Shown here in pieces: positions 1,180 through 56,860 of a stretch of DNA of 64,000 nt. Under the pieces are notes generated by a model. The model searched no databases and was not told the DNA's origin. It was given only the letters and a program-made list of their open reading frames with translations. The stretch is from the NCBI GenBank assembly GCA_016219175.1, contig JACRCD010000028.1, positions 62,001 through 126,000 on the forward strand, in the 5' to 3' direction. Origin of the DNA: Deltaproteobacteria bacterium (GTDB lineage Bacteria; Desulfobacterota; Desulfobulbia; Desulfobulbales; SURF-16). How positions within the stretch are numbered: the stretch's first letter is position 1; each line of letters starts with the position of its first letter. The position numbers and the translations under genes were made by a program.

Positions 1180-1196
1180 TGCGGCAATTTGCCACA
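1180..1196. promoter_or_regulatory. RegA/PrrA-like palindromic site 1
   Basis: TGCGGCAATTTGCCACA, an inverted repeat with GCGGC-N5-GCCAC arms. It is one of a family of sites in this window and lies 103 bp upstream of the sigma-54 activator start. Confidence 0.7.
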
Positions 1197-1298
1197 TTTC
1201 CGCAGCGATTATTCTGTGTTATTAGTAACTAAAGAATAAAATTCGAGCAGTGGGCCATCATCCTCATATCCGCTGTTGATACTACGGGGGGACATCTT

Positions 1299-3074
1299 AT
1301 GGTAAAATTACCCAAGAGCACGAAAACTCCCAAGGTGGAAGACGCAATTTTCATGGTGAATTCCGCCTGGGAGCTCATCTCCTTCAATCGGGCGGCCGAA
1401 GAACTTTTTGGCCTTAAATCAGAGGATGTGATCGGCAGAAACTGTCATGCGATTTTCGGCAGTGACAAACGGTTTGCCGAGCTTTTCTCCGCCCTCTGCC
1501 CCTCTGTTTCCGCGGGAAAGATTGTAACTGATTTCAATCTGGTCATTGAAAACCCTGAAAAAAACACCTTGGCAGCTGTGCTGGCCACCGCCGTGCCAAT
1601 TCCCGATAAGGAAGGAAAGCCATCAGGGGCCATTGTCATTTTCCAGGATGCCTCATCAAGCTCGATGTGCAACCGGATGATCATAGACAGTATAGCCGAT
1701 GGAGTATTCACTGTTGATCGCAACTGGAAAATCACCTCCTTTAATGCCGCGGCCGAAGCCGTCACCGGCTGGAAGAGAGAGGATGCCATCGGGAAATTCT
1801 GCGGAGATGTTTTTCATTCCAGTATCTGCGGGAAAAGCTGCGCCATCGCCCAGAGCCTCTATTCCGGCAAACCGGTCGCCAACCGCTCGATCACCATTGC
1901 CACTATTGAGGGCAACCGCATTCCCATCAGTATCTGCGCCTCCCCATTAACCGACCATGAGGGAAACATCATCGGCGGCGTTGAAACTTTCCGTGATCTT
2001 TCCGCCATCACCATGCTGCAGAAACAATTAAGCAAAAGCTACACCTTTGACGAAATAATCAGTAAAAGTACGGCAATGCAAAGAATATTCAGCATTCTCC
2101 CGGAAATTGCCCGCAGCCCGAGCAATGTGCTGATCCTAGGAGAAAGTGGGACAGGCAAGGAACTGGTGGCGAGGGCCATCTTTCACGCCAGCACAAGAAG
2201 CGAGGAACCGTTTGTGGCTGTCAACTGCGGGGCTTTGCCGGAAACCCTGCTTGAGTCCGAGCTGTTCGGTTACAAGGCCGGGGCCTTTACCGATGCCAAA
2301 CAAAATAAGCTGGGTCGCTTTGCCGCGGCGGAAAAAGGCACGCTCTTTCTTGATGAAATAGGTGACATCCCGCAATCCCTGCAGGTGAAACTTCTCAGGT
2401 TTCTGCAAAATAAAGTATATGAACCTCTGGGTTCCAATGTCCCGGTAAAGGCTGATGTCCGCATCATCACCGCCACAAACCGTGACCTGCGTGAGCTTGT
2501 CAATGCCGGACTGTTCCGGGAAGATCTTTTCTACCGGCTTAACGTGGTTAAAATCCACCTGCCCCCTTTGCGGGAGCGCATGGAGGACATTCCAATCCTG
2601 ATAGACCATTTCATCAAGCAATACAGCGCCCAGCAAGGAAAGGATATCGTGGGAATTTCCAGTGGGGCGCTGATTCTCCTTATGCGCTACAACTTTCCCG
2701 GCAATATCAGGGAACTTGAAAATATCATAGAATATGCTTTTATTCTCTGCGAGGGAGGTCTTATTCAACCTGAACATCTTCCCGAACCCTTTGGGGTGCC
2801 TGCCGCAAAAACCGAAGGGGCCGACCGGAAGCCGACATCAGGCGGCAAGGGTCTGCAAACCCTCGAAGAAATCGAAAAACAAGCAATTTATATGGCGCTG
2901 GAGCGAAACAGCTGGAAACGGATGGCAACCTGCCGCGAACTGGCGATTTCAAAAGACACCTTGCGCAGAAAAATAACCCGGTTCAATCTGGAAAGTGAGT
3001 TTGACAAAAAACTGGACGAGTTAACAGACGATCATTTTTACAGTAACATGCAGGGAAGCCCCACTCATATATAA
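1299..3074 (+). CDS. PAS-PAS sigma-54-dependent transcriptional activator (orphan)
   Basis: A 591-residue NtrC-family activator without a receiver domain. Two PAS domains (about 10-120 and 125-245) are followed by the AAA+ domain with Walker A GESGTGKELVAR, Walker B LFLDEIGD, and a C-terminal Fis-type helix-turn-helix (RELAISKDTLRRKI). It would sense a small ligand or redox state through PAS and drive sigma-54 promoters. The loop contacting sigma-54 reads GAFTDA instead of GAFTGA. The PAS2 segment carries a Cys cluster (SSICGKSC) that could be redox-active. The ATG at 1299 is preceded by a G-rich ribosome site. A palindromic site lies 103 bp upstream. Targets are not shown by sequence; the good sigma-54 promoters at 13280, 33283, 52566 and 56797 are candidates. 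Confidence 0.92.
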   Translation: MVKLPKSTKTPKVEDAIFMVNSAWELISFNRAAEELFGLKSEDVIGRNCHAIFGSDKRFAELFSALCPSVSAGKIVTDFNLVIENPEKNTLAAVLATAVPIPDKEGKPSGAIVIFQDASSSSMCNRMIIDSIADGVFTVDRNWKITSFNAAAEAVTGWKREDAIGKFCGDVFHSSICGKSCAIAQSLYSGKPVANRSITIATIEGNRIPISICASPLTDHEGNIIGGVETFRDLSAITMLQKQLSKSYTFDEIISKSTAMQRIFSILPEIARSPSNVLILGESGTGKELVARAIFHASTRSEEPFVAVNCGALPETLLESELFGYKAGAFTDAKQNKLGRFAAAEKGTLFLDEIGDIPQSLQVKLLRFLQNKVYEPLGSNVPVKADVRIITATNRDLRELVNAGLFREDLFYRLNVVKIHLPPLRERMEDIPILIDHFIKQYSAQQGKDIVGISSGALILLMRYNFPGNIRELENIIEYAFILCEGGLIQPEHLPEPFGVPAAKTEGADRKPTSGGKGLQTLEEIEKQAIYMALERNSWKRMATCRELAISKDTLRRKITRFNLESEFDKKLDELTDDHFYSNMQGSPTHI

Positions 3075-3546
3075 CCGCCCATCCGGCAAACGTTTCACGC
3101 AAAAAAACGAACCAGGTAAAGTTGATGAATCCGTAAAAAGTCTGCGCCAAAGCCCGGATGGCTCCGTAACAAAAACAGTTTCTCCGCCCAAAGAGCAAGA
3201 ATCTGACAATCTATCGAATCTCTTTTCATCTCTTCTAAGCCTGGCGGGCACCATTTTCATTTCGTCTTCACTTTCAGGCAGCGGCAGACGTTCGCTTTTT
3301 ACTCTGTCATGATTTTCTCCGGAATCAGGAAACTGCCATGTTCCTTTATAGCATTGCAGATATTTTCAACGGCATTGCCGCAACAGCGACCGGCAATGGC
3401 GGCGAAACAGGCAGGGGAGGCGGTTACTCAGCTGAAAATATTTAAGCTCCACGGACACTTACTGGACAAAAAAAAACCGAAAGCTTAAGATAACACTGTT
3501 TATCTACATATCTTTTTTAGATTTTTTCCGGAGGGGAGATCTGTCA
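3075..3546. other. Intergenic region with a truncated repeat element
   Basis: It holds the left-end fragment of the inverted-repeat element (3123-3174, listed separately). The rest (3180-3546) shows no convincing ORF. A half-palindrome (CATTGCCGCA) near 3373 has no matching left arm and was not called as a site. Confidence 0.6.
3123..3174 (+). repeat. Truncated copy of the MITE-like element
   Basis: These 52 bases align with the left end of the full element at 18235-18286 with 7 mismatches by hand count, including the TGATGA...CGTAAAAAGTC terminus. Similarity stops after GTAACAAAA and no right inverted repeat follows, so this is a decayed or partial copy. Confidence 0.75.
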
Positions 3547-13117: not shown

Positions 13118-13118
13118 C

Positions 13119-19851: not shown

Positions 19852-20943
19852 TTAGTCTTTTGTCGTGTGGCAAACAGCGCAACCGTTATAACCGCCACCT
19901 GGCCACAATTTATAATCCCAACGCAACATCGCGCCATACGGAGTACCATGGGCTCTATGGCAGGAAAGACACATAACGACAGCATCATCGGTGGTTGAAT
20001 AAACGGTGCTGTTTACAGACGCTGTTTTATCCGAGGTCGCGACGGGAGAAATGACGCTGTAAGTATTGCCGGCGCCGGTACCGCCGTTATATTTCTCATA
20101 TTCACCGGAAGAGGAGGCCCTCCCCATGTCAAAATCGGTGGGATGCCGAAGCCAGACCCCGCTGCTGCCAAAAGAACCGGAAGCAATATTGCCCGCCCCC
20201 TGATGAAAATCGCCATGACACTGAGCGCAAAGATTGCTGATGGTTCCGTTAACGTTCTGTGTCTCCAGGGTTCTGTCAATCCCATAATATTTATTATGGT
20301 GGCTGCTGTCTGGCCGATACTCATACTCCGTATCTTCCAACCCCTGAACAGAGTAAAGGAAACGATAGCTCGCCGCAAGGGTTGTACCATCCTTCCAGCT
20401 GCTCATGTCGTTAGTATGGTGGGATTTCAGCATGGACTCAATTTCCCCGCCCACACTCCTGTCGCCATGGCAGCCGTTCGTGCCGGCGCACTGCAATTGC
20501 ACATCCAAACCTACTCCGCCGGGAGGGACATTGCCGAAACGGCTGTCCACGGCAGTAAAACCGCTCACGTTATGACCGGTGGCCTCCTGTCCGCTGCTGA
20601 CCCAAAAAAAATTCCCGCCCGCCAGGGTAGTAGTGTCACCTTCGGTTCCCGTGGAGCTGTATGCCGGAGCGCTGGTCTGCAGGACGTACGGGGTGACAAG
20701 ACCATCCGCGCTGTTGTTTCCCTGATGGCAGCCGATGCAGCTGGTATTGAGCAGGGCCTCATGAGGCGTATCTGATAGTTCCATGGAACCATTAACCAGA
20801 TTCCGCACCACGGCGATTCCCCCCTGGCTGTTGTGCATCGTATGACAGTTGCCGCATGGCCCCGTAACCTTGGCATCACACACAAGGGGAAACAGGGTCA
20901 GAGACAGTGAAACCAATTTCTGGACAGCTTTTGATGTCTGCAT
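19852..20943 (-). CDS. OmcS-like hexaheme extracellular cytochrome (paralog 1)
   Basis: 363 residues from ATG 20943, behind AAGAGGTGGACC. Signal peptide, then GPCGNCHTMHNSQ, SCIGCHQG, a GHNVSGF segment, QCAGTNGCHG, LCAQCHGDFHQG with WLRHPTDFDM, MCLSCHRAHG and CAVCHTTKD. The order and the spacer motifs (CHTMHNS, GHN, LRHP, CLSCHRAH, final CHxKD-like end) match what I recall of Geobacter OmcS, the filament-forming hexaheme cytochrome. Five sites are CXXCH and the third is CX5CH. It follows an NHL propeller gene by 13 bp. I infer a secreted cytochrome, possibly polymerising into a nanowire; polymerisation cannot be read from sequence. Confidence 0.85.
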   Translation of the reverse strand: MQTSKAVQKLVSLSLTLFPLVCDAKVTGPCGNCHTMHNSQGGIAVVRNLVNGSMELSDTPHEALLNTSCIGCHQGNNSADGLVTPYVLQTSAPAYSSTGTEGDTTTLAGGNFFWVSSGQEATGHNVSGFTAVDSRFGNVPPGGVGLDVQLQCAGTNGCHGDRSVGGEIESMLKSHHTNDMSSWKDGTTLAASYRFLYSVQGLEDTEYEYRPDSSHHNKYYGIDRTLETQNVNGTISNLCAQCHGDFHQGAGNIASGSFGSSGVWLRHPTDFDMGRASSSGEYEKYNGGTGAGNTYSVISPVATSDKTASVNSTVYSTTDDAVVMCLSCHRAHGTPYGAMLRWDYKLWPGGGYNGCAVCHTTKD

Positions 20944-20956
20944 GGTCCACCTCTTG

Positions 20957-21847
20957 CTAACGGCCAAATATTTCCACCCGACCACTTCCCTCCTCTACAA
21001 CACAAAGACCTCCCCATGGGTCAAAAAGTATTTCGATCGGATAGTACAGCTCGCCTCGAGACCAACCCTTGCCAAGAAAGGCATATTTAAATTCGCCCTG
21101 CGCATCAAAAACAGCAATATTTCCTTTATGGCGATCAAGAACATAGGCATTATCCGCCGGGCCAATTGCCAGAGACACAGGAAACTCTACCTGCAGACCA
21201 ACAGCAAAGCTTTTGGTCAAGGCGCCGCCGCTGTCAAACTGCACAACTTTTTTACCCAGCTGATCCAAGGCCCAGAGACGACCATCATTTGTTAATTTAA
21301 AATCAACGATGCCACTAACGCATTCCGGACAGGAGATCCATTTGTTTACGCTCAGATTACCGTCGATCACGGCAATCTCCCCTGATGCCTTATCAAGGAT
21401 GTAGAACTGGCCGTTTTTATAGTCCATCCGGTCAGGCACCAGGGTGCGATCACCTTCCTTCAGGGTATGCAATGTAATTTCTTTTGACTTGACATCAACA
21501 CTTGTCAGGCTGTTGCGCCCTTTTTCGATCACCCAGAGAAGATCCTTTTCATCACGAACCATATCATAGGGGATCTGGAGTTTGCCTTCCGCGGTAAACG
21601 TATGCAGAAAACCGCCTTCCCTGGAAAAGGAAAGAAGCCTGTTGCCGCCACTGTCAATCACATAGTAACGCTGACGCTCGACATCAACGTACAAAGCCGT
21701 GGGCATGGACATGGCCTGGCCGGATGATGTCCCCTCAAGGGTTGCTCGCCAAGCCCAGGGGTCTGCCGCATAAGAAGTTGACACCCCAATAAAATTTGCG
21801 ACAGTCAGCAATGCTGCCAAACCCAATATTTTGTTCACGAACTTCAT
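20957..21847 (-). CDS. Periplasmic NHL-repeat beta-propeller
   Basis: 296 residues from ATG 21847 (GAAGGAG upstream). The signal peptide is MKFVNKILGLAALLTVANF... ending near SYAADPW. NHL-type blades repeat, for example PTALYVDVERQRYYVIDSGGNRLLSFSREGG, PYDMVRDEKDLLWVIEKGRNSL and YPIEILFDPWGGLCVVEEGSGRVEIFGR. There are no hemes. NHL proteins commonly accompany extracellular cytochrome genes in metal-reducing bacteria and may act in assembly or scaffolding; their biochemical role is unknown. It lies between the 16-heme and OmcS-like genes in one transcript. Confidence 0.87.
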   Translation of the reverse strand: MKFVNKILGLAALLTVANFIGVSTSYAADPWAWRATLEGTSSGQAMSMPTALYVDVERQRYYVIDSGGNRLLSFSREGGFLHTFTAEGKLQIPYDMVRDEKDLLWVIEKGRNSLTSVDVKSKEITLHTLKEGDRTLVPDRMDYKNGQFYILDKASGEIAVIDGNLSVNKWISCPECVSGIVDFKLTNDGRLWALDQLGKKVVQFDSGGALTKSFAVGLQVEFPVSLAIGPADNAYVLDRHKGNIAVFDAQGEFKYAFLGKGWSRGELYYPIEILFDPWGGLCVVEEGSGRVEIFGR

Positions 21848-21904
21848 AGAGTCTCCTTCACAAAACAGCATTCTGTTACCGAAAATTAAAAATACGCATT
21901 GTCA

Positions 21905-23083
21905 TCAGTATCTCTTATGGCACTGAACACAAAGATCTTTCGAGCCGCTGTATATCAATTCGTTTTTAAAATCCGATCCCATGGGCAAGTGACAGCTGAT
22001 ACACGTTACCATTTGCCCTGTTCGGGCATCCAAAATCTTTTCCCCGACCGGATGAGTGAACTTGCCCTGGGTCTCATGGCATTGGGTGCAAATGGCATTG
22101 CCGTCACCCCTGAGCATGGCCACCCGGTTTGAGCCATGCACTTCATGACAGCTTGTGCATGTGCCTGCTTTAGCCTCAGGATGTTTGTAAAGCTTATCCG
22201 CATAGCGGGCCATGGTATCACGATGGCAAGCACGGCATACTTCAACCTGGCTGCCTTTCAACAGATTCTTTTCATCAGCCGCATGCGGAGAATGGCAATC
22301 CACACATTTATTTCCGCCCTTGCCGGTCAAATGACTGTGCCGGGCATGCATCTCCGTTGCAACTTTTTCATGGCAACGCAGACAGCTCTGCGTGTTTCCC
22401 TGTGTCCCCTTTTGATCATGACAATCCTTGCACCCCTTTGCATATGGAGCATGAAGCACATTCCGGACAATGCCTTTCCGCTCACTGCCGTGGGGATTAT
22501 GACAGGAAAGGCAGTTTCGCAGCTGCCCTGGATAATCCGCATGGCCTTGCTGCAAATCCTGGGGCTTATGACAGGATTGACAGATTTTATCCGGTTCATC
22601 CTTGAGCAATTGGCCATAAGCCGCCTGGTGCGGACGATGACAGGCAAAACATTGCCCTTTGGCAAACGGACTGTGTGTATGTCCGTATTTCTGAGGCAAT
22701 TTGTCGTGACAGCTGAAACAGATTTTATCTAAATTGCTCTTAAGCAGCCCGCTGTTGGCGCTGGCGTGGGGTTCATGACAGGCGAGGCATTTCCCGCCGC
22801 GGACAGGCTGGTGAACCAAACCCTCCTTGAATTTTTCCTTTTCCTTGCCGTGGCATGCATAGCAAAGATCAGCCCCTTCCTTTTCGAGCAAACCCTTAAA
22901 ATGAGCGACATGGGGATTATGACAAGCCTTGCACTGCCCGTCGGCTAGAGGTTGATGAACAATGTTGCCGCTGAATGACCCTTTATCGTGGCAATCAAAG
23001 CAGATATTCTCTGCCGCTGCGGCAGCTCCAGGCAAAACAACGGCAAGCCAGAAAATGACAACCATGCGATGATAATGTAACAT
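21905..23083 (-). CDS. 16-heme cytochrome c with doubled CXXCH repeats
   Basis: 392 residues. The ATG at 23083 overlaps the previous stop (TAATG) and follows GGGGAGGG. A signal peptide (VVIFWLAVVLPGAAAAAEN) is followed by 16 CXXCH sites in repeats of about 45 residues that alternate C..CHDK-type and CxxCHxPH-type sites, the doubled-CXXCH pattern. It is a soluble exported cytochrome able to carry charge over a long distance. It is translationally coupled to the 26-heme lipoprotein, so the two probably form one conduit, with this subunit in the periplasm or at the cell surface. Confidence 0.92.
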   Translation of the reverse strand: MLHYHRMVVIFWLAVVLPGAAAAAENICFDCHDKGSFSGNIVHQPLADGQCKACHNPHVAHFKGLLEKEGADLCYACHGKEKEKFKEGLVHQPVRGGKCLACHEPHASANSGLLKSNLDKICFSCHDKLPQKYGHTHSPFAKGQCFACHRPHQAAYGQLLKDEPDKICQSCHKPQDLQQGHADYPGQLRNCLSCHNPHGSERKGIVRNVLHAPYAKGCKDCHDQKGTQGNTQSCLRCHEKVATEMHARHSHLTGKGGNKCVDCHSPHAADEKNLLKGSQVEVCRACHRDTMARYADKLYKHPEAKAGTCTSCHEVHGSNRVAMLRGDGNAICTQCHETQGKFTHPVGEKILDARTGQMVTCISCHLPMGSDFKNELIYSGSKDLCVQCHKRY

Positions 23084-26641: not shown

Positions 26642-27234
26642 CGTTTCATTCCTTTCGCATACCACTCTTCAATAACCTCCTCCGCCATAATACGGCTGAG
26701 CTGGGTCACCGTGTTAACAAGTCCGAAATGCATGACGGTACGGTAATCAGCACCTTCACGCCTATGGTAAGTAGTCCACATTGTCTTACCGCTCTTGGCG
26801 TCATGAACCTCCAGCGTTAACGCCAGGACAGGAGTCACATAGTTGTCCCCCATTTTTTCTTCCATTTCCGCTATTCTGCCCGTGATGATAAGTTGGACAT
26901 CAAGCCTGCTGCCTATCACCATGATTTGTTCGATATCAGGGTGCTGGTTGGGAAATATCCGCAGCTCTCTGTAAAGATTCCAGACATCGCCCTCGGAGGC
27001 GACTTTAATTCCAGCACTGCTTAATTTTGCCCCCATGATACGCTGGACGATAATTCCTCCCTGGTCAAAACGACTGTCATTAATAAAAGGAAGAAGGGCT
27101 ATACTGCATACATCGTCTCCTTCATGGACGACATTTTTTTCAAAGGAAGGGCGCGCGGGTCCACACGAAATGCAACTCAGCAGAAGGCTGATTATGCTAA
27201 AAAGGGAAAAGCAGCTGGGTAATGGAAAATTCAT
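26629..27234 (-). CDS. Small envelope lipoprotein with TolB/CsgG-like N-terminal fold
   Basis: 201 residues from ATG 27234; a TTG at 27255 overlapping the upstream gene is an alternative. A signal peptide ends LLSCISCGPARP, a lipobox. The core reads SIALLPFINDSRFDQGG...VQRIMGAKLSSAGIKVASEG...VIGSRLDVQLIITGRIAEME...LALTLEVHDAKSGKTMWTTYHRREG, the pattern of secretion-linked lipoproteins (CsgG, LpoB, GNA1162 type) that bind other envelope partners. Two other proteins in this operon share this fold. No enzyme motif was seen. A role in secretion or in assembly of the outer-membrane cytochrome system is inferred from context. Confidence 0.72.
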   Translation of the reverse strand: MNFPLPSCFSLFSIISLLLSCISCGPARPSFEKNVVHEGDDVCSIALLPFINDSRFDQGGIIVQRIMGAKLSSAGIKVASEGDVWNLYRELRIFPNQHPDIEQIMVIGSRLDVQLIITGRIAEMEEKMGDNYVTPVLALTLEVHDAKSGKTMWTTYHRREGADYRTVMHFGLVNTVTQLSRIMAEEVIEEWYAKGMKRCEE

Positions 27235-27251
27235 AAAAAATGTCGCTCTGA

Positions 27252-28727: not shown

Positions 28728-28829
28728 GATGGCAACCGCATAAAACGCTGGTCCTCTCTCTTGCCGGGAAATTCCCGGCTACCAGGAAAGGCGGCCGGGC
28801 AAATGCTCATCCCGGATTCCTACACAATA

Positions 28830-29465: not shown

Positions 29466-29673
29466 GAACAGAATCCTTGAAAAATTGAAAGGGTAACGCT
29501 TCGCTCATAAAGAATCAAACTTCATGATTCAGCCCCGGAATGCAACCGCAAAAAATCTCCTATAACAAAGGAAAAAAGACATCAAGAGGTGTTATTAGCC
29601 GCACGCTCTATCAACGAACCGTTCATACTGCTCCGCCGGGCCGGGAAATGGCTTTGTGCGAGACCGTTAAATT

Positions 29674-31731: not shown

Positions 31732-31737
31732 AATCAG

Positions 31738-31782
31738 TTACTTTCCGCATGTAATTATGAAAAATAAATCATTTTCCTTCAT
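31738..31782 (-). CDS. Possible 14-residue leader ORF in frame with the beta-barrel gene
   Basis: Minus-strand ATG at 31782 lies 7 bases after AAGGAG and encodes MKENDLFFIITCGK before TAA. The barrel ATG follows 6 bases later in the same frame. It may be a translational-coupling leader or a nonsense-interrupted N-terminal extension. Confidence 0.4.
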   Translation of the reverse strand: MKENDLFFIITCGK

Positions 31783-31908
31783 CCCCCATCTCCTTGCATT
31801 AAAATGCAAAACATGAAGAAACAGCAACTGTTATCAGTCTAAAACAAAAAAAAGCTACATCTCAACAAGCCTGGGCAAACCTTACCGGTCAAAACATTTG
31901 ACAAAAAA

Positions 31909-31963
31909 AATTCCGGCCTGAAAACGATAAGGAGGGAAGGGATATCGTTTCCTGGCCGGAATT
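31909..31963 (-). terminator. Rho-independent terminator of the second OmcS-like gene
   Basis: Arms AATTCCGGCC (31909-31918) and GGCCGGAATT (31954-31963), with inner AAACGATA/TATCGTTT pairing, are followed on the minus strand by eight T residues (31901-31908 region). This separates the cytochrome from the barrel gene downstream. Confidence 0.85.
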
Positions 31964-32023
31964 AACTTGTGCAGCTAACAGACTTTTACTTTTTCTTACT
32001 CATTATGCGATTGCGGCTGTCCA

Positions 32024-33154
32024 TCAACCTGCATCTTTGGTTGTATGGCACTCAAAACAGCCACAGGCGCCATTGTCGCTTCCGGCCTGACAAGTATCAT
32101 AATCCCAACGGAGAAGATCCGCATATGGGGATCCATGAGCCCGATGGCAGGAAATACAGTTAACGATTGCGTCGCCCGCGTTGGCAAATACGTTGCTCAC
32201 AGTAACCGTGACAACAGCTCCTGTTTTACGGTTGGTGGCAACAGGAGCGATAGGCAGATACGTTCCATCAGTGCCGTAACTCTTGTATTCGGTGCCGGCG
32301 CCTAGAACGTTCATATCATAATCCGTTGGATGACGTATCCAGGCAGCAGCTGCTTCCACACCAGTGTCAGCGCCGAGATTTCCAGCCCCTGAATGGAAAT
32401 TGCCATGACATTCGGCACAAAGATAGTTGATACTTTTTGCACCTTCACTCCCTGATGCGGGCATTGTGTCGGATGCCCGATGCACACCGTAATATTGATT
32501 ATGATCTATTGAACTGCTGTCAAATTCCCAATTGGTGTCTTCCTTGCCGATAATACCATAGAGGAAGCGGAAACTTTTGGCGGTTGTCGAACCATCAAGG
32601 GTGGAGTCATCACCATGGTGGGATCCCGAGATTGCGGTAAAATCATCCACCGTACTGCCCCCCTTCACATGCTCCCCATGACAGCCATAGGTGCCGGCAC
32701 AGGTCAACTGGGTCGCCCAAGCGCCATTTCCGCTGTTCACCTGGGTATTTGCATTAAAATCAGGATTCCAGCCGGGAGGATCGTAATCCAAATTCACGTC
32801 GGCATTGACGCCTGCTTCAAGGCCGATCACATTATGTCCCGTGGTGTCGTCGGTAAGCACCCAATAAAAATTGCCGCCGGCAAGGGTATTGGTGCCGTAG
32901 GTAGGCGCTCCAGAAGAAAGAACATAGGGGATATTACCGGCAACGGTATTGGTTCCCGTATGGCAACCAATGCAACCGCCATTGGTTAACGCCCCGCTTG
33001 GAGAATCAAAAAGATCCGCGCCATCCTGGCTGTTATGCATTGTATGACAGTCCACACAGGGGCCTGCCGCCTTACCCATAACTGAACACGGCAGAATGAA
33101 CGCGACTCCCAACAAGCCGACGCCGATCGATATAATCCGCATTTTTTTATCCAT
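32024..33154 (-). CDS. OmcS-like hexaheme extracellular cytochrome (paralog 2)
   Basis: 376 residues from ATG 33154, behind GGAGGG. Same architecture as the paralog at 19852: GPCVDCHTMHNSQ, CIGCHTG, GHNVIGL, TCAGTYGCHG (CX5CH), LCAECHGNFHSG with WIRHPTDYDM, NCISCHRAHG, CFECHTTKDAG. It differs by being a stand-alone transcript: its own strong terminator lies just downstream, and upstream are a palindromic site (33228-33244) and a sigma-54 promoter (33283-33298). That arrangement suggests separate, stronger and regulated expression, as expected for the main filament subunit, with the other copy expressed with the accessory operon. Filament formation is inferred from similarity to OmcS, not shown. 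Confidence 0.87.
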   Translation of the reverse strand: MDKKMRIISIGVGLLGVAFILPCSVMGKAAGPCVDCHTMHNSQDGADLFDSPSGALTNGGCIGCHTGTNTVAGNIPYVLSSGAPTYGTNTLAGGNFYWVLTDDTTGHNVIGLEAGVNADVNLDYDPPGWNPDFNANTQVNSGNGAWATQLTCAGTYGCHGEHVKGGSTVDDFTAISGSHHGDDSTLDGSTTAKSFRFLYGIIGKEDTNWEFDSSSIDHNQYYGVHRASDTMPASGSEGAKSINYLCAECHGNFHSGAGNLGADTGVEAAAAWIRHPTDYDMNVLGAGTEYKSYGTDGTYLPIAPVATNRKTGAVVTVTVSNVFANAGDAIVNCISCHRAHGSPYADLLRWDYDTCQAGSDNGACGCFECHTTKDAG

Positions 33155-33227: not shown

Positions 33228-33244
33228 TGCGGCAAATTGTCGCA
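33228..33244. promoter_or_regulatory. RegA/PrrA-like palindromic site 2 (best match)
   Basis: TGCGGCAAATTGTCGCA, core GCGGC-N5-GTCGC. It lies 74 bp upstream of the OmcS-like start. A possible sigma-70 -10 (TATTAA, minus strand 33199-33194) would put the site centre near -50. Confidence 0.8.
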
Positions 33245-33282: not shown

Positions 33283-33298
33283 AGCACATTACATGCCA
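33283..33298 (-). promoter_or_regulatory. Sigma-54 promoter upstream of the OmcS-like gene
   Basis: On the minus strand TGGCATGTAATGTGCT: a TGGCATG -24 box, GG-N10-GC spacing and a GTGCT -12 box. Transcription would start near 33272, which puts the palindrome at about +29 to +45. Confidence 0.65.
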
Positions 33299-33474: not shown

Positions 33475-33792
33475 CTAACTGGCCCGGATGAATTTCAGAC
33501 CTGCAAAATACCCTTCTTCCCTCTTGCCGGACCACATCACAACAGCCTTCTTCGGTATTTTAACATCCGCCTTCGTAGCAATATTGACCATCTGCCCGAG
33601 AAACAACTCTCCAGAAGTACTTATGCCCATACCTGTTTCACTAATATTAAGTAGTTTAGCCTCCACACTTTCCATTGACAGGTCACGAATTTCGAGGATA
33701 ATCGCGGGGTCACCGCCAAGCTGCTCCGCAGAGACCCTTCTGGCAAGTCTCCCATCCGTCAAAACCCCCGCACCCTCTCCAACCATTTTCAT
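33475..33792 (-). CDS. Single-domain PilZ protein
   Basis: 105 residues from ATG 33792 (GTG 33795 also possible). The c-di-GMP binding signatures are present: RxxxR at R15-R19 (RLARR) and NxSxxG in LLNISETGMGIS, followed by MVNIATK and ending GLKFIRAS as in PilZ domains. It would bind cyclic di-GMP and act on a partner, for example in motility, exopolysaccharide or secretion. No other domain is present. The palindromic site at 33915-33931 lies 123 bp upstream, placing it in the proposed redox regulon with the second PilZ gene at 40879. Confidence 0.85.
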   Translation of the reverse strand: MKMVGEGAGVLTDGRLARRVSAEQLGGDPAIILEIRDLSMESVEAKLLNISETGMGISTSGELFLGQMVNIATKADVKIPKKAVVMWSGKREEGYFAGLKFIRAS

Positions 33793-34526
33793 CACCGCAC
33801 CCTATTATGAATTTCGAGTAATTTTTCCGTTTAACCAGCGAACAACCCAAACCATTCCTCGAAGTTATTTGCTATTGTCAATTAAAAAATAACACATAAT
33901 CTTCTCCCTGGAAATGTGGTGAATTGTCGCACCACAAATAATGTAACAACTATGCACCATCTCCTTTTCTACCTTTTATTTCCGCCAAATAAGAAAAAGA
34001 CAGGTGTTAATCACTTTTTTAAAAATTCTGCCTTGTTTGCATTTCTGTGACATAAAATTTCCGTAATTCCGCCTTCATGGCCTGGACAATTACGCGACAC
34101 ATTCTGTTAACTGGAAAAATAGAGGGCGACAGGGTAACAATAGAGTTATGCATGGGATACAGCACGGAACTGTCTGCTAGCGCGACCAAACACACCAACC
34201 GGCGTCACATGGTGATGTTGCAGAGTATTGCCGACAGTTTCTTAAACGCGGATTATTATCTCCGCGGAGGTATTCAATGAAAAAAGAAGCTGCCAAGCAT
34301 ATCACTAAACAGTGGTGTCAGGTTACCAAAGCGGCCCGGAACCCGAGGATCTAATGAAAATATATCAGAGAGAGGAACGCGAGGTTGCAGAAGACGGAGA
34401 AGACACTCAAAGACCGTGCTAATTCCATGCTATTTTGGGGGATTACTCATGGTTAACAACAAAACATAACAACCGATCCATTTGGAATTTTTGAAATAAA
34501 TCGAGGAAGGGCGGGATTGACCACGT
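33793..34526. other. Long gap with a palindromic site and no convincing gene
   Basis: Apart from the site at 33915-33931, a 67-codon plus-strand frame (34077-34280) overlaps by ATGA with a 25-codon frame, but neither has a ribosome site or a recognisable family. It may be a decayed gene. The rest shows nothing I can name. Confidence 0.45.
33915..33931. promoter_or_regulatory. RegA/PrrA-like palindromic site 3
   Basis: TGTGGTGAATTGTCGCA. It overlaps a second inverted repeat, TGTGGTG-N8-CACCACA (33915-33936), so the local symmetry is extended. It faces the PilZ gene on the minus strand. Confidence 0.6.
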
Positions 34527-35370: not shown

Positions 35371-35607
35371 TTATTTCCCCCTGCGGATAAAAAAGCGGAA
35401 AAAACCGCTTTCATCCTTGGCCCCGAGAAACTCATGTCCAGCCCTGGTGCACCAACCGGGCAGGTCATTCTTTGACCCGGGATCCGTGCCCAGCACCTCA
35501 AGAACCTCTCCTTCCTTGATTTTATTGATAAACTGCTTTGTTTTCAGAAGGGGCATAGGGCAACTCAATCCTTTCGCATCAAGTGTCAAATCGGCTTTCA
35601 GGTCCAT
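35371..35607 (-). CDS. TusA/SirA-family sulfur carrier protein
   Basis: 78 residues with the family signature near the N-terminus: LDAKGLSCPMPLLKTKQFINKIKEGEVLEVLGTDPGS. The Cys of CPMP is the persulfide-carrying residue. The start follows GAGGAGGAAAT. TusA-like proteins move sulfane sulfur to tRNA modification, molybdopterin or dissimilatory sulfur pathways. This member stands alone with no other sulfur gene nearby. It is divergent from regB, with the palindromic site at 35701-35717 lying between them (94 bp upstream of tusA), so it may share the redox regulation. Specific sulfur partners cannot be inferred. Confidence 0.9.
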   Translation of the reverse strand: MDLKADLTLDAKGLSCPMPLLKTKQFINKIKEGEVLEVLGTDPGSKNDLPGWCTRAGHEFLGAKDESGFFRFFIRRGK

Positions 35608-35700: not shown

Positions 35701-35717
35701 TGTGGTAAAATGTCGCA
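35701..35717. promoter_or_regulatory. RegA/PrrA-like palindromic site 4, regB/tusA divergent region
   Basis: TGTGGTAAAATGTCGCA, 64 bp before the regB start and 94 bp before tusA. A site in front of the kinase gene fits autoregulation by the partner RegA. Confidence 0.65.
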
Positions 35718-35780: not shown

Positions 35781-37160
35781 GTGAACTCATCTGATGGAAA
35801 GATCATTTACTGCGAAATCCGCAGCAGGGTCCAAGACATAGCCTTTCTCTGGCTTCTCCGGCTCAGATGGGCCATCCTGGCAAGCCAGGCATTGATAATC
35901 CTGGCAGGAAGCAGATTTTTTTATTTACAGATTTCCCTGTGGCTTGCGGTGCTGGTGTTCGTTCTTGGCCTAAGCAGCAATATTTCCCTTTACAATTTAC
36001 TTGCCCGGAAGGCCGTCATTCCCTGCTGGGTTCCCACCCTTGTGATGTTTTTTGACGTTGCCTTGATGACCATTCTTTTTTTCCAGGTTGTCTCAATCTA
36101 TAACCCCCTGAGCATTCTTTACATAATCTACATAGTCCTGGGCGCCCTTCTTCTTGAACGAAAATGCTCTTATTCCCTTACCGCCTTTACCTTCCTCTGT
36201 TATGGCATCTTTTTCTGTTTTGCCTCCCCCAGCCCGATTGACCATTCGATCCTGAACGCCACCAACCCAGTCATCGGCAGCCCCGAGGCTTTAACCATCT
36301 TCAGCAGACAGATTGATGAATATTTCAAGTCCTACAGCTATTTCATGTTCTTTATATTTTTCCTCGTGGCCTTGTTAATAGTCTACCCTGTGGCCCAGAT
36401 AAAAAAAAACATGGAAGAGCAGGACGAAATCTTCAAGGAACTTGAAGAGGAAAGGATGCGAAACGAAAAACTTGCCTCGCTCGCCACTTTTGCGGCGGGA
36501 GCGGCGCATGAATTTTCCACGCCTCTGTCAACCATAGCAATTGCCGCGGGCGAAATGCTTTTTTATTTCAAAAAGCAGGGCGGGGACAAAGCTCTGATTG
36601 ACGATACCCGCCTGATTCGCGATCAGGTTGCCAGGTGCAAGGAAATCCTCTACCAGATGTCTGCTGATTGTGGTAAATTACTCGGAGAGGCTGTTGACAA
36701 ATTCAGCCTCAAGGAACTAGTTTATGAAGTTATGTCCCGTTTCAACTTTGAGAATATGCAACATGTCAACTTCAATAACAGGGTTGGGGATATGCATATT
36801 GTGATGCCCATCCGGACCCTCACAAGGACCATTAAAGAGCTTATGAAAAACGCCATGGACGCATCGGATCCTGGTTCCCCTATTGAGCTGACGTGCTGGA
36901 ATGACTCTCAATATTTGTATTTTGAAGTTTTGGACCAAGGGGCAGGGATGGATGAAACTGCTATAAAACGGGCGATAGAACCGTTTTACACCAGTAAGCA
37001 ACCAGGAAAGGGTATGGGGCTAGGTCTCTATCTGGCCAAGGTGATGGCAAACAGATTCGGTGGCGATCTGAAGCTAACTTCGCGACCGGGGGAAGGAACC
37101 AGTGCGACATTAAGTTTTGCTTTGAATCGGATTCAAGCGGACAACGGCGCGGATGCCTGA
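35781..37160 (+). CDS. regB: RegB/PrrB-type redox-sensing histidine kinase
   Basis: 459 residues, GTG start after GGGGTG. It opens LLRLRWAILASQALIIL as RegB proteins do and has about six membrane helices (20-200). A diverged quinone motif, SIYNPLS around N108-P109, stands where RegB has GGxxNPF. H-box: AAGAAHEFSTPLSTIAIAAGEM with H243. C286 in QVARCKEIL sits where the redox-active cysteine (Cys265 in Rhodobacter capsulatus) is expected. The kinase core has ELMKNAMDAS, DQGAGMD and GKGMGLGLYLA. RegB senses ubi- or menaquinone redox state and phosphorylates RegA, which is the next gene. The family is best known from alphaproteobacteria. Confidence 0.9.
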   Translation: MNSSDGKIIYCEIRSRVQDIAFLWLLRLRWAILASQALIILAGSRFFYLQISLWLAVLVFVLGLSSNISLYNLLARKAVIPCWVPTLVMFFDVALMTILFFQVVSIYNPLSILYIIYIVLGALLLERKCSYSLTAFTFLCYGIFFCFASPSPIDHSILNATNPVIGSPEALTIFSRQIDEYFKSYSYFMFFIFFLVALLIVYPVAQIKKNMEEQDEIFKELEEERMRNEKLASLATFAAGAAHEFSTPLSTIAIAAGEMLFYFKKQGGDKALIDDTRLIRDQVARCKEILYQMSADCGKLLGEAVDKFSLKELVYEVMSRFNFENMQHVNFNNRVGDMHIVMPIRTLTRTIKELMKNAMDASDPGSPIELTCWNDSQYLYFEVLDQGAGMDETAIKRAIEPFYTSKQPGKGMGLGLYLAKVMANRFGGDLKLTSRPGEGTSATLSFALNRIQADNGADA

Positions 37161-37217
37161 AAGGTACAGGTCCGGTTCACATCTATAACCTCAACCATCA
37201 CTTGGAGAAACGCAAAA

Positions 37218-37751
37218 ATGGAGACCATTCTGATAGTCGACGATGAAGATCTTTTCAGAAACAGAATGCAACGGGCCTTCGAAAACCGCGGTTTCTCCGT
37301 TTATGCGGCGGCAAATTATGATGAGGCCATCAAGATCATCAAAGACGACAGGCCAAAGCTCGCGGTGATTGATATGAAAATGCCAGGCAAATCAGGTCTC
37401 GAACTGATCCGTGATGCGATGCAAATCGACCCGGACATAAAAATGGTAGTCCTGACAGGTTACGGCAGCATAGCCACCGCAGCGGATGCTGTTAAACTTG
37501 GGGCCATATTTTATCTGCCAAAACCCGCTGATGTCGGGGATATCCTCAACGCCTTCAACAGAAATCCGGAGGTTGAGATCGACCAGCAGCCGGATGATTT
37601 TACCGCGCCATCCCTTGCCCGGACCGAATGGGAACATATCAACCGGGTTCTCGGGGATTGCGGGGGAAATATCTCAGAAACCGCCAAGAGACTTGGCATC
37701 CACCGCAGAACCCTGCAAAGAAAGTTGTACAAATATCCCCCGGACAAATAA
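37218..37751 (+). CDS. regA: RegA/PrrA/ActR-type response regulator
   Basis: 177 residues; start after GGAGAAACGCAAAA. Receiver with D8, D9, phosphoacceptor D52 (LAVIDMKMPGKSG) and the family segment VVLTGYGSIATAADAVKLGA...YLPKPAD. A short linker leads to the helix-turn-helix NISETAKRLGIHRRTLQRKLYKYPP, which is almost a family signature; there is no AAA+ domain. RegA-type proteins bind palindromes of the type GCGGC-N5-GTCGC and control respiration, nitrogen fixation and cytochromes by redox state. Such palindromes occur at seven intergenic places in this window. Its stop codon directly abuts the stop of the convergent propeller gene. Confidence 0.94.
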   Translation: METILIVDDEDLFRNRMQRAFENRGFSVYAAANYDEAIKIIKDDRPKLAVIDMKMPGKSGLELIRDAMQIDPDIKMVVLTGYGSIATAADAVKLGAIFYLPKPADVGDILNAFNRNPEVEIDQQPDDFTAPSLARTEWEHINRVLGDCGGNISETAKRLGIHRRTLQRKLYKYPPDK

Positions 37752-40774: not shown

Positions 40775-40791
40775 TGCGACAATTTGCCCCA
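40775..40791. promoter_or_regulatory. RegA/PrrA-like palindromic site 5
   Basis: TGCGACAATTTGCCCCA, one base from a perfect TGCGACAATTTGCCGCA. It is 88 bp before the PilZ-type start and centred about 52 bp before a start site predicted from TATAAT at 40823-40828, a normal activator position. Confidence 0.7.
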
Positions 40792-40878: not shown

Positions 40879-41304
40879 ATGACTACCAATTTCAACACCC
40901 TTAACCGCAGGAAATTCCCTCGGTTTATGCCCAAAACAGACATGTATGTGCTCCACTATAATTTCGGAAAAGTTATAGATATCAGCATGGGAGGCATACT
41001 CTTTAATTACGTTGACAAAGAGTATTTGCAGGGGATTCCCCCTGAAAAGGGCATTCTCTTTGGCTATAACGACCATTACATGGATGAGATCCCTTTCGAG
41101 ACCGTCTCCGATACGGTAATCTCCAAATCGCCAACCAGCAAACCGGTCATCAAGCAGAGACGTGTCATCTTTGGCGACCTTACCGAGGGACAAATCCAGC
41201 AACTGGAGCGTTTTATTTTAAATAATGCCAGCATACCCCAGTTGGCGGCCTATGATGCGCAATTTGTTGAAGACAACAATCCCGAAAAGCACAGACTGAT
41301 GTAA
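40879..41304 (+). CDS. PilZ-domain protein (second)
   Basis: 141 residues; start after GCGAGGGGTTCAAG. The N-terminal signature is RRKFPRF (R11xxxR15) and a DxSxGG-type motif is present in KVIDISMGGILF, both used to hold cyclic di-GMP. The remainder (about 60-141) is helical and charged with no recognised domain. The protein is predicted to be cytosolic. It has its own palindromic site upstream and a bidirectional hairpin terminator after it, so it is a single-gene unit. Partners are unknown; with the other PilZ gene it suggests c-di-GMP output tied to the redox regulon. Confidence 0.82.
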   Translation: MTTNFNTLNRRKFPRFMPKTDMYVLHYNFGKVIDISMGGILFNYVDKEYLQGIPPEKGILFGYNDHYMDEIPFETVSDTVISKSPTSKPVIKQRRVIFGDLTEGQIQQLERFILNNASIPQLAAYDAQFVEDNNPEKHRLM

Positions 41305-45753: not shown

Positions 45754-47517
45754 ATGCCTTTGTCTTCCAATCTCAAACGAAAAATCTTTATGTACATGGC
45801 CTTGGCCGGCCTTGTCCCTCTGCTTGCGCTTTCTTTTCAGAACCATTATTTTGGTAAAAAAGCCATTGAAAAACTGGAAATTGAGCACCTGAATTATTCC
45901 TTGAAATCAAGAATGCTCTGGCTGCTCGAATGGACAAGGCACAGCAAAAAAGAGTTTTTCAGGTTAGGCAGCACCATCGCCTCTAAAGACGAACGCATTT
46001 CCCAGGAACACCTTACCACTCTCTCGTTTGCCGTCGAGGGGCTCTTCAAGGGACATTCCAAATACAAATCCCTGACAGTCTATGATCACAACTGGTTGAT
46101 CGTCCGGCAATTCAACGAAGAAACGGAAAGCGAGATCCCCCCTCCTTCCGCCGACTTCAAACGGAAATTCAACAACGCCGACCTTCTTCTGATGGATAAA
46201 CAGTATCAGAGCGCCAGCGGCGACACCATCCTGCCCCTCGGTCAAACCGTCCTGAACCGCAACGGACATCCATTAGTCCATATCATCGCGGAAATGAATA
46301 CGACTCAATCCCTGAAAAGGATATTGTCCGACACGTCCGACCTTGACACCAGCGGCAAGATGTACCTTGCCACGGCAGACGGGGTTCTGCTTTACCATAC
46401 TGCCCCGGCAGCCTATGAAGATACCCCCCCCCGGCTCGGAACCGTTGCCGCCGATCTTCTCCAGAAGCCGTACTGGAGCTTGAAAAAAAGAAAAGACTCC
46501 AAGGGGGTTGCTGTTTTTTCCGTGGCCGCGCCGATTCCCGAGACGGACTGGATCCTTATTGTTGAACTTGACAAAATGCATGCCATGCAGGAGTTTGAAA
46601 AATACTTGAGCATAGGCGGCGGCACAGCCCTGGGAATTCTTCTTGTCATTCTCGTCCTCTCCTGGCGCACGGCGCGCAGCGTGGCTGATCCTCTTGACGA
46701 ATTTTCCCGGGTTGCCCTGCATATCTCGGCGGGCAATCACCAGGAAAGGCTTCCCGACTTCAAGGACCGGTATCTCAATGATGTTGGCGAGGCCTTTAAT
46801 TCCATGCTGGATACCCTGGAAGAAAACAAGAAATCCATGATCCAGACCATATCGTTAAGCTCTGTGGGGAAACTGAGTTCCAGCATTGTCCATGAAATGC
46901 GCAATCCCCTCTCCTCAGTCAAAATAAACCTGCAGGCCCTGGCCCGCAAAGTGAAAAATGACCCCGCCTACGCGGAGATGGCCGCCATTGCCCTCACCCA
47001 GGTAAAACGGCTTGAATCGATGTTCTCGGATCTACTCCATTTCAGCAAACCCATCCAGTTGCAGCCCGAGGATACCTCTTTCCAGCATTTAGCCGAGGAG
47101 GCCCAGGAAATCCTCAGCCAAAAGGCGGCCGACAAGGTGATCTCGCTTGAAATCGTCAATAACCTGGGGAACACCTCGTTGAAACTTGACAAAAAACACA
47201 TCGTCCTGGCTTTGATCAACCTGGTCGATAATGCCATCCAGTGGTCCCCCCCCGATAGCATTGTGCAGATCCTCGGCGATCAGTCTCCTGATGAAAAAGG
47301 TTTTACCATTACGGTCAAGGACAGAGGTCCCGGACTCAGGGCAGACCAGATGAACAATCTTTTTCAGCCTTTTTACTCCACCAGGGAAAAGGGCACGGGA
47401 CTCGGGCTGGCCAATGTGAAAAAGATCGTCGAATTCCATGGCGGCTCTGTTTTTGCAGCAAACAATCCTGACGGCGGCGCGCAATTTTCAATGGTTTTCA
47501 AAGGAAGACAAAGCTGA
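45754..47517 (+). CDS. Membrane histidine kinase with periplasmic PDC-type sensor
   Basis: 587 residues from ATG 45754; an upstream TTG frame runs from 45616 but would add a non-homologous stretch. One membrane segment lies near residues 14-34. The extracytoplasmic sensor region (about 40-290) has the PDC/Cache pattern (LTVYDHNWLIVRQF, KMYLATADGVLLYH, ETDWILIVELDK). A second membrane segment, HAMP, HisKA (H380 in IVHEMRNPLSSVKINLQAL) and HATPase (LVDNAIQWSPP, KGTGLGLANVKKIVEFHGG) complete it. Its ligand is periplasmic and unknown. The next gene overlaps it by one base (TGATG), so it is the phosphodonor for the sigma-54 regulator that follows. Confidence 0.9.
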   Translation: MPLSSNLKRKIFMYMALAGLVPLLALSFQNHYFGKKAIEKLEIEHLNYSLKSRMLWLLEWTRHSKKEFFRLGSTIASKDERISQEHLTTLSFAVEGLFKGHSKYKSLTVYDHNWLIVRQFNEETESEIPPPSADFKRKFNNADLLLMDKQYQSASGDTILPLGQTVLNRNGHPLVHIIAEMNTTQSLKRILSDTSDLDTSGKMYLATADGVLLYHTAPAAYEDTPPRLGTVAADLLQKPYWSLKKRKDSKGVAVFSVAAPIPETDWILIVELDKMHAMQEFEKYLSIGGGTALGILLVILVLSWRTARSVADPLDEFSRVALHISAGNHQERLPDFKDRYLNDVGEAFNSMLDTLEENKKSMIQTISLSSVGKLSSSIVHEMRNPLSSVKINLQALARKVKNDPAYAEMAAIALTQVKRLESMFSDLLHFSKPIQLQPEDTSFQHLAEEAQEILSQKAADKVISLEIVNNLGNTSLKLDKKHIVLALINLVDNAIQWSPPDSIVQILGDQSPDEKGFTITVKDRGPGLRADQMNNLFQPFYSTREKGTGLGLANVKKIVEFHGGSVFAANNPDGGAQFSMVFKGRQS

Positions 47518-48863
47518 TGAGCGTAATACACATTATTGATGACGACAAAGCCCTCTGCCGCAGCCTGCAGATCCAGCTGGAGGCGCTGGGCCACAAAGTT
47601 CATCTTTACCACACCATGCATGAAGGAACTGATGCGGCCGTGCAGTCCAGACCGGATCTCATCTTGCTCGATGTCAACCTGCCGGACCAGAGCGGATTGC
47701 TTGGTTTGCCGGTCCTGCTGGAAAAAGGCCAGGACCTCTGCGTGGTTATCATGACCGGCAACGTGGACAACAAGGCAGTCATTGACTCCATGCGCAAGGG
47801 GGCCTTTGATTATCTGCGCAAGCCGCTTGATCTTGATGAACTGTTTGACATGGTGGAAAAGGTGGAGACGCGCAAAAAGAAAAAACAGCCAACACCACGG
47901 GAGCAGACGGATGAACCACACCCCTCCCTTGACGACCTGATCGGCTCCCACCCGATAATGATTGAGTTGCTGAAGCATATCGGCCTGCTGTCCCGCAGCA
48001 GAGTGACGGTGCTGATCCTGGGAGAAAGCGGCACAGGCAAGGAACTGGTTGCTAGAATTCTCCATGAATCCTCCTCGCCGGGCATGCCTTTTGTGGCCAT
48101 AAACTGTTCCGCGGTGGTGCCGACCCTGCTGGAAAGCGAACTCTTCGGCTATGAGAAGGGGGCCTTCACCGGGGCTGAAAAAACCAAAATGGGCAAAATG
48201 GAATTTGCCGGCGAGGGCACGGTCTTCCTTGACGAAATTGGCGACATGCCTCTTGACCTGCAGAGCAAACTCCTGCGGGTCCTGCAGGAGGAGGAATTTG
48301 TCCGGGTCGGAGGTCTGGAAACCATCCCTCTTAAGGCGCGTATTGTAGCCGCCACCCATCGCAACCTCCAGAACATGGTTGAACGGGGAGAATTCAGGCA
48401 GGATCTCTTTTACAGGGTGAATGTCTCCACCCTGCATATCCCCCCCCTGCGGTCCCGGCGTGAAGATATCCCTCTACTCGTTAAAAGCCTGCTGGTCAAA
48501 ATATGCGCAAAACTCCATTGCGACTTGGTTTCGGTTTCCGAAGCGGCCATGAAGAAAATAATGGATTATCACTGGCCCGGCAATGTCAGGGAGCTGGAAA
48601 ATGCCCTGACCCGCGCCGCGGCGCTGTCCAGGGACGGCAGAATCCTCGCCGAGGACATTGTCTGGCAGCCGGTCAAGAACCCGGCCTCTGCCCAGGCCAA
48701 GGAAGAACCATTCACCCTGGCGGAAGCGGAAAAATTTCACATCGCAAAAGCTCTCGGGGAAAACGACTGGAACATCACCCACACCGCCCAGAAGCTGGCC
48801 ATATCGCCCACAACCCTGCGCAAGAAAATCAATGATTTCAATATAGAAAAACCTACTCTCTGA
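47517..48863 (+). CDS. Sigma-54-dependent response regulator
   Basis: 448 residues: receiver (about 1-120, phosphoacceptor D52 in LILLDVNLPDQSG), AAA+ with GESGTGKELVAR, intact GAFTGA, VFLDEIGD and VAATHRNL, and a Fis-type helix-turn-helix (AQKLAISPTTLRKKINDF). It is the standard NtrC/AtoC/ZraR layout. Start overlaps the kinase stop. Likely targets are sigma-54 promoters; of those found nearby, 52566 and 56797 are the closest, but the porin gene at 48958 directly downstream has no visible element. Of the three activators in this window it is the only one with the canonical loop. Confidence 0.93.
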   Translation: MSVIHIIDDDKALCRSLQIQLEALGHKVHLYHTMHEGTDAAVQSRPDLILLDVNLPDQSGLLGLPVLLEKGQDLCVVIMTGNVDNKAVIDSMRKGAFDYLRKPLDLDELFDMVEKVETRKKKKQPTPREQTDEPHPSLDDLIGSHPIMIELLKHIGLLSRSRVTVLILGESGTGKELVARILHESSSPGMPFVAINCSAVVPTLLESELFGYEKGAFTGAEKTKMGKMEFAGEGTVFLDEIGDMPLDLQSKLLRVLQEEEFVRVGGLETIPLKARIVAATHRNLQNMVERGEFRQDLFYRVNVSTLHIPPLRSRREDIPLLVKSLLVKICAKLHCDLVSVSEAAMKKIMDYHWPGNVRELENALTRAAALSRDGRILAEDIVWQPVKNPASAQAKEEPFTLAEAEKFHIAKALGENDWNITHTAQKLAISPTTLRKKINDFNIEKPTL

Positions 48864-52431: not shown

Positions 52432-52565
52432 CTGCCTTTCGTTAGCCAACTCCTCCATCGTCCCATTGTTGCGCGGCGTCCTTACAACCGGTAAACATTT
52501 TGTTTCAGTAAATTCAGTTGATTAACCCGACAAGGACAGCAATAAACCGCATCCCGGCAACTCAT

Positions 52566-52581
52566 TGGCATTCCGTATGCT
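52566..52581 (+). promoter_or_regulatory. Sigma-54 promoter of the LVIVD-repeat gene
   Basis: TGGCATTCCGTATGCT with GG-N10-GC. Predicted start near 52592; the palindrome begins 17 bases after the -12 C. Confidence 0.65.
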
Positions 52582-52596: not shown

Positions 52597-52629
52597 TGCG
52601 GCGAATTGCCGCTGCGGCAAAAAACCGCG
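52597..52629. promoter_or_regulatory. Tandem RegA/PrrA-like palindromic sites 6a and 6b
   Basis: TGCGGCGAATTGCCGCT (52597-52613) and TGCGGCAAAAAACCGCG (52613-52629) share one base. The same tandem layout is found at 56828-56860. Confidence 0.7.
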
Positions 52630-56487: not shown

Positions 56488-56510
56488 CCATACCGCAGTA
56501 ACCTGGGACA

Positions 56511-56543: not shown

Positions 56544-56796
56544 GCGCGCAACTCAGGCGGATTTTTATGCCAACCTGAAGACTTCTTTCCACCTTGCAAG
56601 GCGCCCGCCCGGCTGTTCACCCCGGTCAACAGTTTCTGGGCAGTCCATCATCAGCTCCTGCCCCCTTCCCTACCTCGGCAAGCCTCTCCATTACGGGCTT
56701 ACCGTTCCGCCCTTACTCGAATTGTAAATATTTTGTTTTCGTAAATTCAGCGAGTTATCTAAAAAATCTCCGGCAAACCGCCTTGCAGCAAAACCT

Positions 56797-56812
56797 TGGC
56801 ATTCCTTGTGCT
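56797..56812 (+). promoter_or_regulatory. Sigma-54 promoter of the choice-of-anchor gene
   Basis: TGGCATTCCTTGTGCT with GG-N10-GC. It differs from the element at 52566 by only two bases; the palindrome again begins 17 bases after the -12 C. Confidence 0.7.
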
Positions 56813-56827
56813 CATCAGGTACGCGGA

Positions 56828-56860
56828 TGCGGCAAATTGTCACAGCGGCAATTTACCGCA
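56828..56860. promoter_or_regulatory. Tandem RegA/PrrA-like palindromic sites 7a and 7b
   Basis: TGCGGCAAATTGTCACA (56828-56844) and AGCGGCAATTTACCGCA (56844-56860), sharing one base. The spacing is the same as at 52597-52629. Confidence 0.75.

Follow-up and report, generated by a model that had tools for sequence, protein, structure and literature searches.

The 17-bp palindrome TGCGRCAAWTTGYCGCA is very probably the operator of a RegA-type response regulator encoded in the window, by which we mean the whole 64-kb stretch of DNA that was analyzed. RegA/PrrA is a textbook redox regulator, and in alphaproteobacteria the control of respiration and hydrogenase by RegA is established. The present system would be a variant RegBA, with a predicted regulon that extends to extracellular electron transfer and the cell surface.

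The palindrome lies mainly between genes in the window, the genome, and its relatives

We found 10 matches to TGCGRCAAWTTGYCGCA (both strands, at most 3 mismatches) at seven places in the window, against a mean of 0.25 matches in dinucleotide shuffles of the window, of which 0/100 reached 10. The seven places are all between genes, in a window that is 86% coding. Pattern matching and gene calls confirmed the coordinates and the intergenic location of the seven palindromes reported in the initial annotation. The distance to the start codon, put there at mostly 60 to 125 bp, was measured as 63 to 127 bp with gene starts taken from a simple codon-usage caller (Table 1), and the tandems described at 52597 and 56828 are both pairs with 16-bp spacing, the copy at 52613 being weak.

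Site 1180 is kept at orthologues in genomes G002, G043, and G101, site 33228 in G002 and G043, site 33915 in G002, and site 40775 at the G043 orthologue. Site 35701 occupies what would be an autoregulatory position, which is conserved across the order.

Pattern searches of the whole genome (4.20 Mb) returned 80 places with at most 3 mismatches, versus 24 for a reversed control pattern, and a tighter IUPAC pattern gave 29 matches versus 1 for the reversed control. A scan of the genome and its relatives with a weight matrix had also been proposed. With a matrix made from the best sites, 27 of the 29 strong sites were intergenic in the genome in which the matrix was built, and the relatives, which provide the independent tests, gave 19/19 in genus g2, 32/32 in genus g5, and 8/8 in another genome of g1. 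The regulatory reading would have suffered had the sites been just as frequent in coding DNA or missing from orthologous promoters; they proved to be intergenic and conserved at orthologues, in its favor. Site counts are largest in the g1/g2/g5 clade, with 23 to 37 in seven genomes and 8 and 10 in two others. The data come mostly from MAGs, all results are computed from sequence, and p-values are indicative, the genomes being related.

Table 1. Features of the window, with predicted sites, promoter elements, and genes
Feature	Position	Strand	Remark
RegA-type site (predicted)	1180..1196	-	102 bp before sigma-54 activator gene 1299-3074
Consensus site TGCGGCAAATTGTCGCA	33228..33244	+	73 bp before OmcS-like gene
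RegA-type site (predicted)	33915..33931	+	122 bp before PilZ gene
RegA-type site (predicted)	35701..35717	+	Between tusA-like gene (93 bp) and regB (63 bp)
RegA-type site (predicted)	40775..40791	-	87 bp before PilZ-like gene
RegA-type site (predicted), first of tandem	52597..52613	+	Over expected transcription start; 127 bp to start codon
Second tandem copy	52613..52629	+	Weak, 13.6 bits
RegA-type site (predicted), first of tandem	56828..56844	+	Over expected transcription start; 89 bp to start codon
Second tandem copy	56844..56860	-	
Sigma-54-like promoter TGGCATGTAATGTGCT, putative	33283..33298	-	Of OmcS-like gene; upstream of site 33228
Upstream box TTTTGTTTCAGTAAATTCAG	52498..52517	+	Common to 56731
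Sigma-54-like promoter TGGCATTCCGTATGCT, putative	52566..52581	+	
Upstream box TTTTGTTTTCGTAAATTCAG	56731..56750	+	
Sigma-54-like promoter TGGCATTCCTTGTGCT, putative	56797..56812	+	
PAS-PAS-AAA+-Fis sigma-54 activator	1299..3074	+	Pfam; predicted target, also rival owner of the site
OmcS-homologous multiheme cytochrome, 5 CXXCH	32024..33154	-	Predicted target
PilZ-domain protein	33475..33792	-	Pfam; predicted target
TusA-like protein	35371..35607	-	Divergent from regB; 64.2 bits, below cutoff 78
RegB-like histidine kinase	35781..37160	+	H-box and redox Cys kept, GGxxNPF replaced by SIYNPLS
RegA-like response regulator	37218..37751	+	HTH NISETAKRLGIHRRTLQRKL
PilZ-like protein	40879..41304	+	Signature RRKFPR...DISMGG alone; predicted target
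Exported protein, 1248 aa	52741..56487	+	Carboxypeptidase-regulatory-like and LVIVD repeats; predicted target
Exported choice-of-anchor F protein	56934..58424	+	NCBIfam NF033657; predicted target

The site accompanies RegA within and beyond the order

That the protein at 37218-37751 belongs to the RegA family is well supported by its predicted features. It has the architecture of the family, a receiver and a Fis-type HTH in about 180 aa without an AAA+ domain, and its recognition helix IHRRTLQRKL, which contains the family's HRRTLQR, aligns with MHRRTLQRKL of 3rqi. Its top match is NCBIfam NF033791 at 178.6 bits, below the curated equivalog cutoff of 250 bits, which is a naming cutoff and no functional feature. 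It is the sole full-length RegA-like protein in the genome. The gap between regB and regA is 57 bp, kinase and regulator genes are adjacent in the order, and the locus has its named relatives in Desulfurivibrio sp. SURF_16 and in MAGs of Desulfobulbaceae, so the window probably derives from a Desulfurivibrio-like bacterium within the Desulfobulbales. The regB and regA homologs first noted at 35781-37751, with a site in front, were recovered, the site lying 63 bp before regB.

The published PrrA consensus in the form quoted in PMC5506826, YSCGGC(N5)GWCRMA, matches exactly at 33228 and 56828. The RegR/PrrA consensus invoked in the initial annotation thus held for PrrA as quoted there, and a search with the RegR form GNGRCRTTNNGNCGC gave zero matches. 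Sites of the GCGRC-N5-GNCGC type are conserved at regBA and at target genes. Among the regBA loci of the order, 18/22 have a site of at least 17 bits, each of them intergenic, and in 17/22 it is directly beside regBA, mostly before regB and sometimes just after regA; in genus g35 the 17-mer preceding regB equals the exact consensus in almost every case. When 80 named regBA loci from several phyla were scanned from 2.3 kb upstream to 0.4 kb downstream of regA, 17 had a site of at least 18 bits, versus 0.05 expected from shuffles, and 11 of these 17 are outside the Desulfobacterota-like group, Myxococcota, Planctomycetota, and Binatia among them.

Across 146 genomes of the order, the mean number of sites was 7.6 in RegA-positive and 3.6 in RegA-negative genomes (p=2e-9, which is indicative since the genomes are related), while the reversed control pattern averaged 1.7 and 2.1, respectively. 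The contrast persists within families at the genus level (within-family permutation P=0.003), and once the home family is set aside, RegA presence is a predictor of site number (t=5.7), a co-occurrence that is graded rather than absolute among non-independent genomes. The match to the PrrA consensus, the sites flanking regBA across phyla, and the site counts that follow RegA support the original attribution of the palindrome to RegA.

Six site-rich genomes without RegA (G101, G094, G054, G075, G087, and G042) are incomplete MAGs from genera otherwise bearing RegA, and G054 holds a partial RegB. Locus L314 of G026 contains a RegB homologue with an in-frame TAA, and RegA was not found in this 97%-complete genome; the system is perhaps decaying.

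Predicted targets include multiheme cytochromes and surface proteins

According to Pfam, site-bearing genes encode OmcS-like and MtrC-like multiheme cytochromes, a flavodiiron-type protein, DUF2202, a di-heme peroxidase, and TauE. Others encode chemoreceptors, sigma-54 activators, surface proteins, and PilZ and GGDEF proteins. Genes of these types have sites again in g2 and g5, which with the own genus makes three genera. Weaker or more distant sites precede genes for a Tat-type Fe/Mn superoxide dismutase and a NiFe hydrogenase small subunit, and in G101 the site at the hydrogenase homologue is strong. The "redox regulon" first suggested for the palindromes fits this target set, redox control itself being what we infer.

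The OmcS-like nature of the cytochrome at 32024-33154, also suggested at the outset, was borne out by a family profile (A1) of OmcS-like proteins, which matches Geobacter OmcS (6EF8) with E=1.7e-21 and most of the OmcS length aligned, the homology covering the multiheme core. A single-sequence PDB search with two OmcS-like proteins gave no match, and OmcS was found by the family profile only. As a difference from Geobacter OmcS, this main window target has five CXXCH motifs. As far as we could find, extracellular cytochromes are new as predicted RegA targets. The two genes initially annotated as PilZ fared differently, since Pfam identified the domain in 33475-33792 but a Pfam search of 40879-41304 gave no PilZ match, leaving it PilZ-like by signature.

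The region 19852-33154 resembles an extracellular-electron-transfer cluster, with two OmcS homologues, cytochromes with 26 and 16 CXXCH motifs, a peptidyl-prolyl isomerase, and an exported protein of 685 aa that may be a porin. Elsewhere, small exported ComEA-like helix-hairpin-helix proteins have a site 76 to 84 bp upstream (L229, L241, and L242 in G043, several copies; L221 in G002).

Sites cover the expected start of sigma-54-like promoters at surface-protein genes

At the choice-of-anchor F gene (G000, G002, and G043) and at 52741, the site begins 30 to 31 bp after the start of a -24/-12 element, which places it at about +5 to +21, often with a second copy 16 bp later. The layout of promoter and site is identical at the choice-of-anchor F orthologues in G002 and G043. 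This position over the expected start of sigma-54-type promoters, found at surface-protein genes in three genera, suggests blocking. The OmcS-like gene has a similar -24/-12-like element in G002, and there the site is further downstream of the element, in G000 as in G002. At MtrC-like genes of three genera, the site is about 160 bp upstream of the -24/-12 element, so RegA may act differently at these genes. Sigma-54-like elements were found at 12/65 site genes versus 17/174 (p=0.08), an enrichment that is not significant, and we therefore claim the sigma-54 layout for the named promoters only.

The upstream boxes at 52498-52517 and 56731-56750 have TTTTGTTTNNGTAAATTCAG in common and lie 46 to 48 bp before the sigma-54-like promoters. 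The NtrC-type protein at 47517-48863 is a candidate activator for this box.

Alternative explanations of the site

A sigma-54 activator with a Fis-type HTH had been named from the start as an alternative owner, in which case the site would be an upstream activating sequence for the protein at 1299-3074 or its close paralogues, which are widespread. Consistent with such a role, a site precedes this gene and each of these orthologous copies, some of the target promoters resemble sigma-54-dependent ones, and the MtrC-like genes have the site far upstream of their -24/-12 element. However, full-length orthologues of 1299-3074 occur, among the matches listed, only in g1, g2, and g5, whereas regBA has sites beside it throughout the order and in further phyla. 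Outside the home family, activator presence does not predict sites (t=0.4), and genomes with the activator but without RegA have a mean of 2.8 sites; conversely, sites are kept in RegA-positive species that lack the activator. A position 30 to 31 bp after the start of the -24/-12 element is also poor for an enhancer, and the general enrichment of sigma-54-like promoters fell short of significance. Site number outside the home family thus follows RegA and not the activator, whose ownership of the site we regard as very unlikely.

We attach equally little probability to another regulator, co-inherited with regBA in most lineages, that would bind the site and have RegA merely as one of its targets. 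G010, a 97%-complete MAG, might speak for it, as it has 14 site-like matches and searches for RegA and RegB found neither. Yet one G010 target, a C_GCAxxG Tat protein, has a homologue among the G043 targets, which makes missing assembly the simpler reading for the absent regBA. The same partner would moreover be required in several phyla, and the site fits the known PrrA consensus, as quoted, while the recognition helix of RegA is conserved. At the G010 loci L182-L196 (even numbers), the site-like matches that were read are intergenic.

Least probable of all is a family of dispersed repeats, hairpins, or terminators that involves no regulatory protein: some sites do lie within 41- to 43-bp inverted repeats, but most lack extended arms (mean of 3.7/12 flanking bases paired), for which reason a terminator or repeat family was rejected for most sites, many are in divergent promoter regions, and the flanks are unrelated around a fixed 17-mer.

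Inverted repeats of this size, near perfect and with the 17-mer inside, occur at regB promoters of genus g35 and its neighbors (L259, L266, L275, L277, L279, and L285-L287) and also at L014, L214, and L230. Their 12-bp arms vary among genomes and stay complementary (ccccgttgcaaa/tttgcaacgggg, ccctgttgcaaa/tttgcaacaggg). These repeats may be an extended operator or a leader hairpin.

RegB of the home clade has a variant sensor region

The window RegB has the H-box AGAAHEFSTPL with the phospho-accepting His243 and the redox-box cysteine Cys286, which is conserved in every RegB covering that position. The quinone-binding motif GGxxNPF, present in nearly all RegB proteins of the order and of other phyla, is absent from it; RegB proteins of the g1/g2/g5 clade have SIYNPLS, SIFNPLN, STLNPAS, or STLNPAG in its place. 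In a tree of 48 RegB proteins, all ten altered ones form a single clade with 100/100 support on a long branch, and the motif was lost once, in this home clade. The top match of the window protein is NCBIfam NF033792 at 157.5 bits, below the curated cutoff of 350, and we classify it by its motifs as a RegB homologue of a variant type. Because the home-clade RegB lacks the canonical quinone motif, its signal may differ from the textbook one. That the altered sensor and the larger regulon coincide in g1/g2/g5 is a correlation only, as it stems from a single evolutionary event.

Discussion

The site, its noncoding location, its conservation, its link to regBA, and the targets are read from the DNA, and from there we infer binding, phosphorylation, signal, and activation or repression. 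RegB, a membrane kinase, would sense the redox state via its conserved cysteine and then phosphorylate RegA, and a RegA dimer would bind with each monomer on one inverted GCGRC half-site. RegA would thereby adjust about 30 promoters, including those of regB itself, OmcS-type and MtrC-like cytochromes, oxygen and peroxide defense enzymes, c-di-GMP effectors, other regulators, and surface proteins. Since tandem sites cover the expected sigma-54-type start at the surface-protein promoters, RegA would probably block transcription there. A more tentative scenario, which we hold with low confidence, is that an ancestral RegBA was rewired in the Desulfurivibrio-like clade: RegB would have swapped quinone sensing for cysteine-based or other sensing, and RegA would have taken over as the principal regulator of the cell surface and of cytochromes for extracellular electron transfer, acting in part through a block at the start site of sigma-54 promoters. 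The loss of the quinone motif in the home-clade RegB and the position of the site over a sigma-54-type start go beyond the initial annotation.

The system resembles the alphaproteobacterial RegB/RegA, PrrB/PrrA, RegS/RegR, and ActS/ActR pairs in having a kinase with an H-box and a redox Cys beside a short Fis-HTH regulator with the helix HRRTLQR. It also resembles that group in the GCGGC-N5-GTCGC halves of the predicted operator and in predicted targets in respiration, electron transport, and hydrogenase, but differs in its Desulfobacterota host, in having OmcS-type cytochromes and surface proteins as predicted targets, and in a home-clade RegB without GGxxNPF. A search of the literature found no RegBA study in Desulfobulbales. 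ChIP-seq of Rhodobacter PrrA gave no strong consensus (PMC4263372), whereas the present genome has a sharp 17-bp palindrome. As in Acidithiobacillus ferrooxidans (PMC5506826), RegBA occurs here outside alphaproteobacteria, with some targets behind sigma-54 promoters. In that organism, the search for a RegA binding motif was unsuccessful and most RegA binding was upstream of the promoter (PMC5506826), in contrast to the clear motif of the present genome, which lies downstream of some promoters. The surface-protein promoters recall those of the PEP-CTERM box and PrsR (PMC1569441), with an upstream box, a -24/-12 promoter about 50 bp on, and then an exported-protein gene; unlike these, the window proteins have no PEP-CTERM end and the expected start is additionally covered by a RegA-type site.

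The operator of RegA/PrrA has so far been ill-defined (PMC4263372, PMC5506826), and a sharp 17-bp version can be read from the sequence. The operators known from previous studies were all degenerate. This predicted operator would allow regulons to be predicted throughout Desulfobulbales and probably in other phyla as well. Redox sensing has a natural experiment in the sister RegB kinases, all of which have the cysteine but only some the quinone motif. RegA may now be named as a testable candidate controller for the OmcS-type cytochromes of uncultured sulfur-cycle bacteria.
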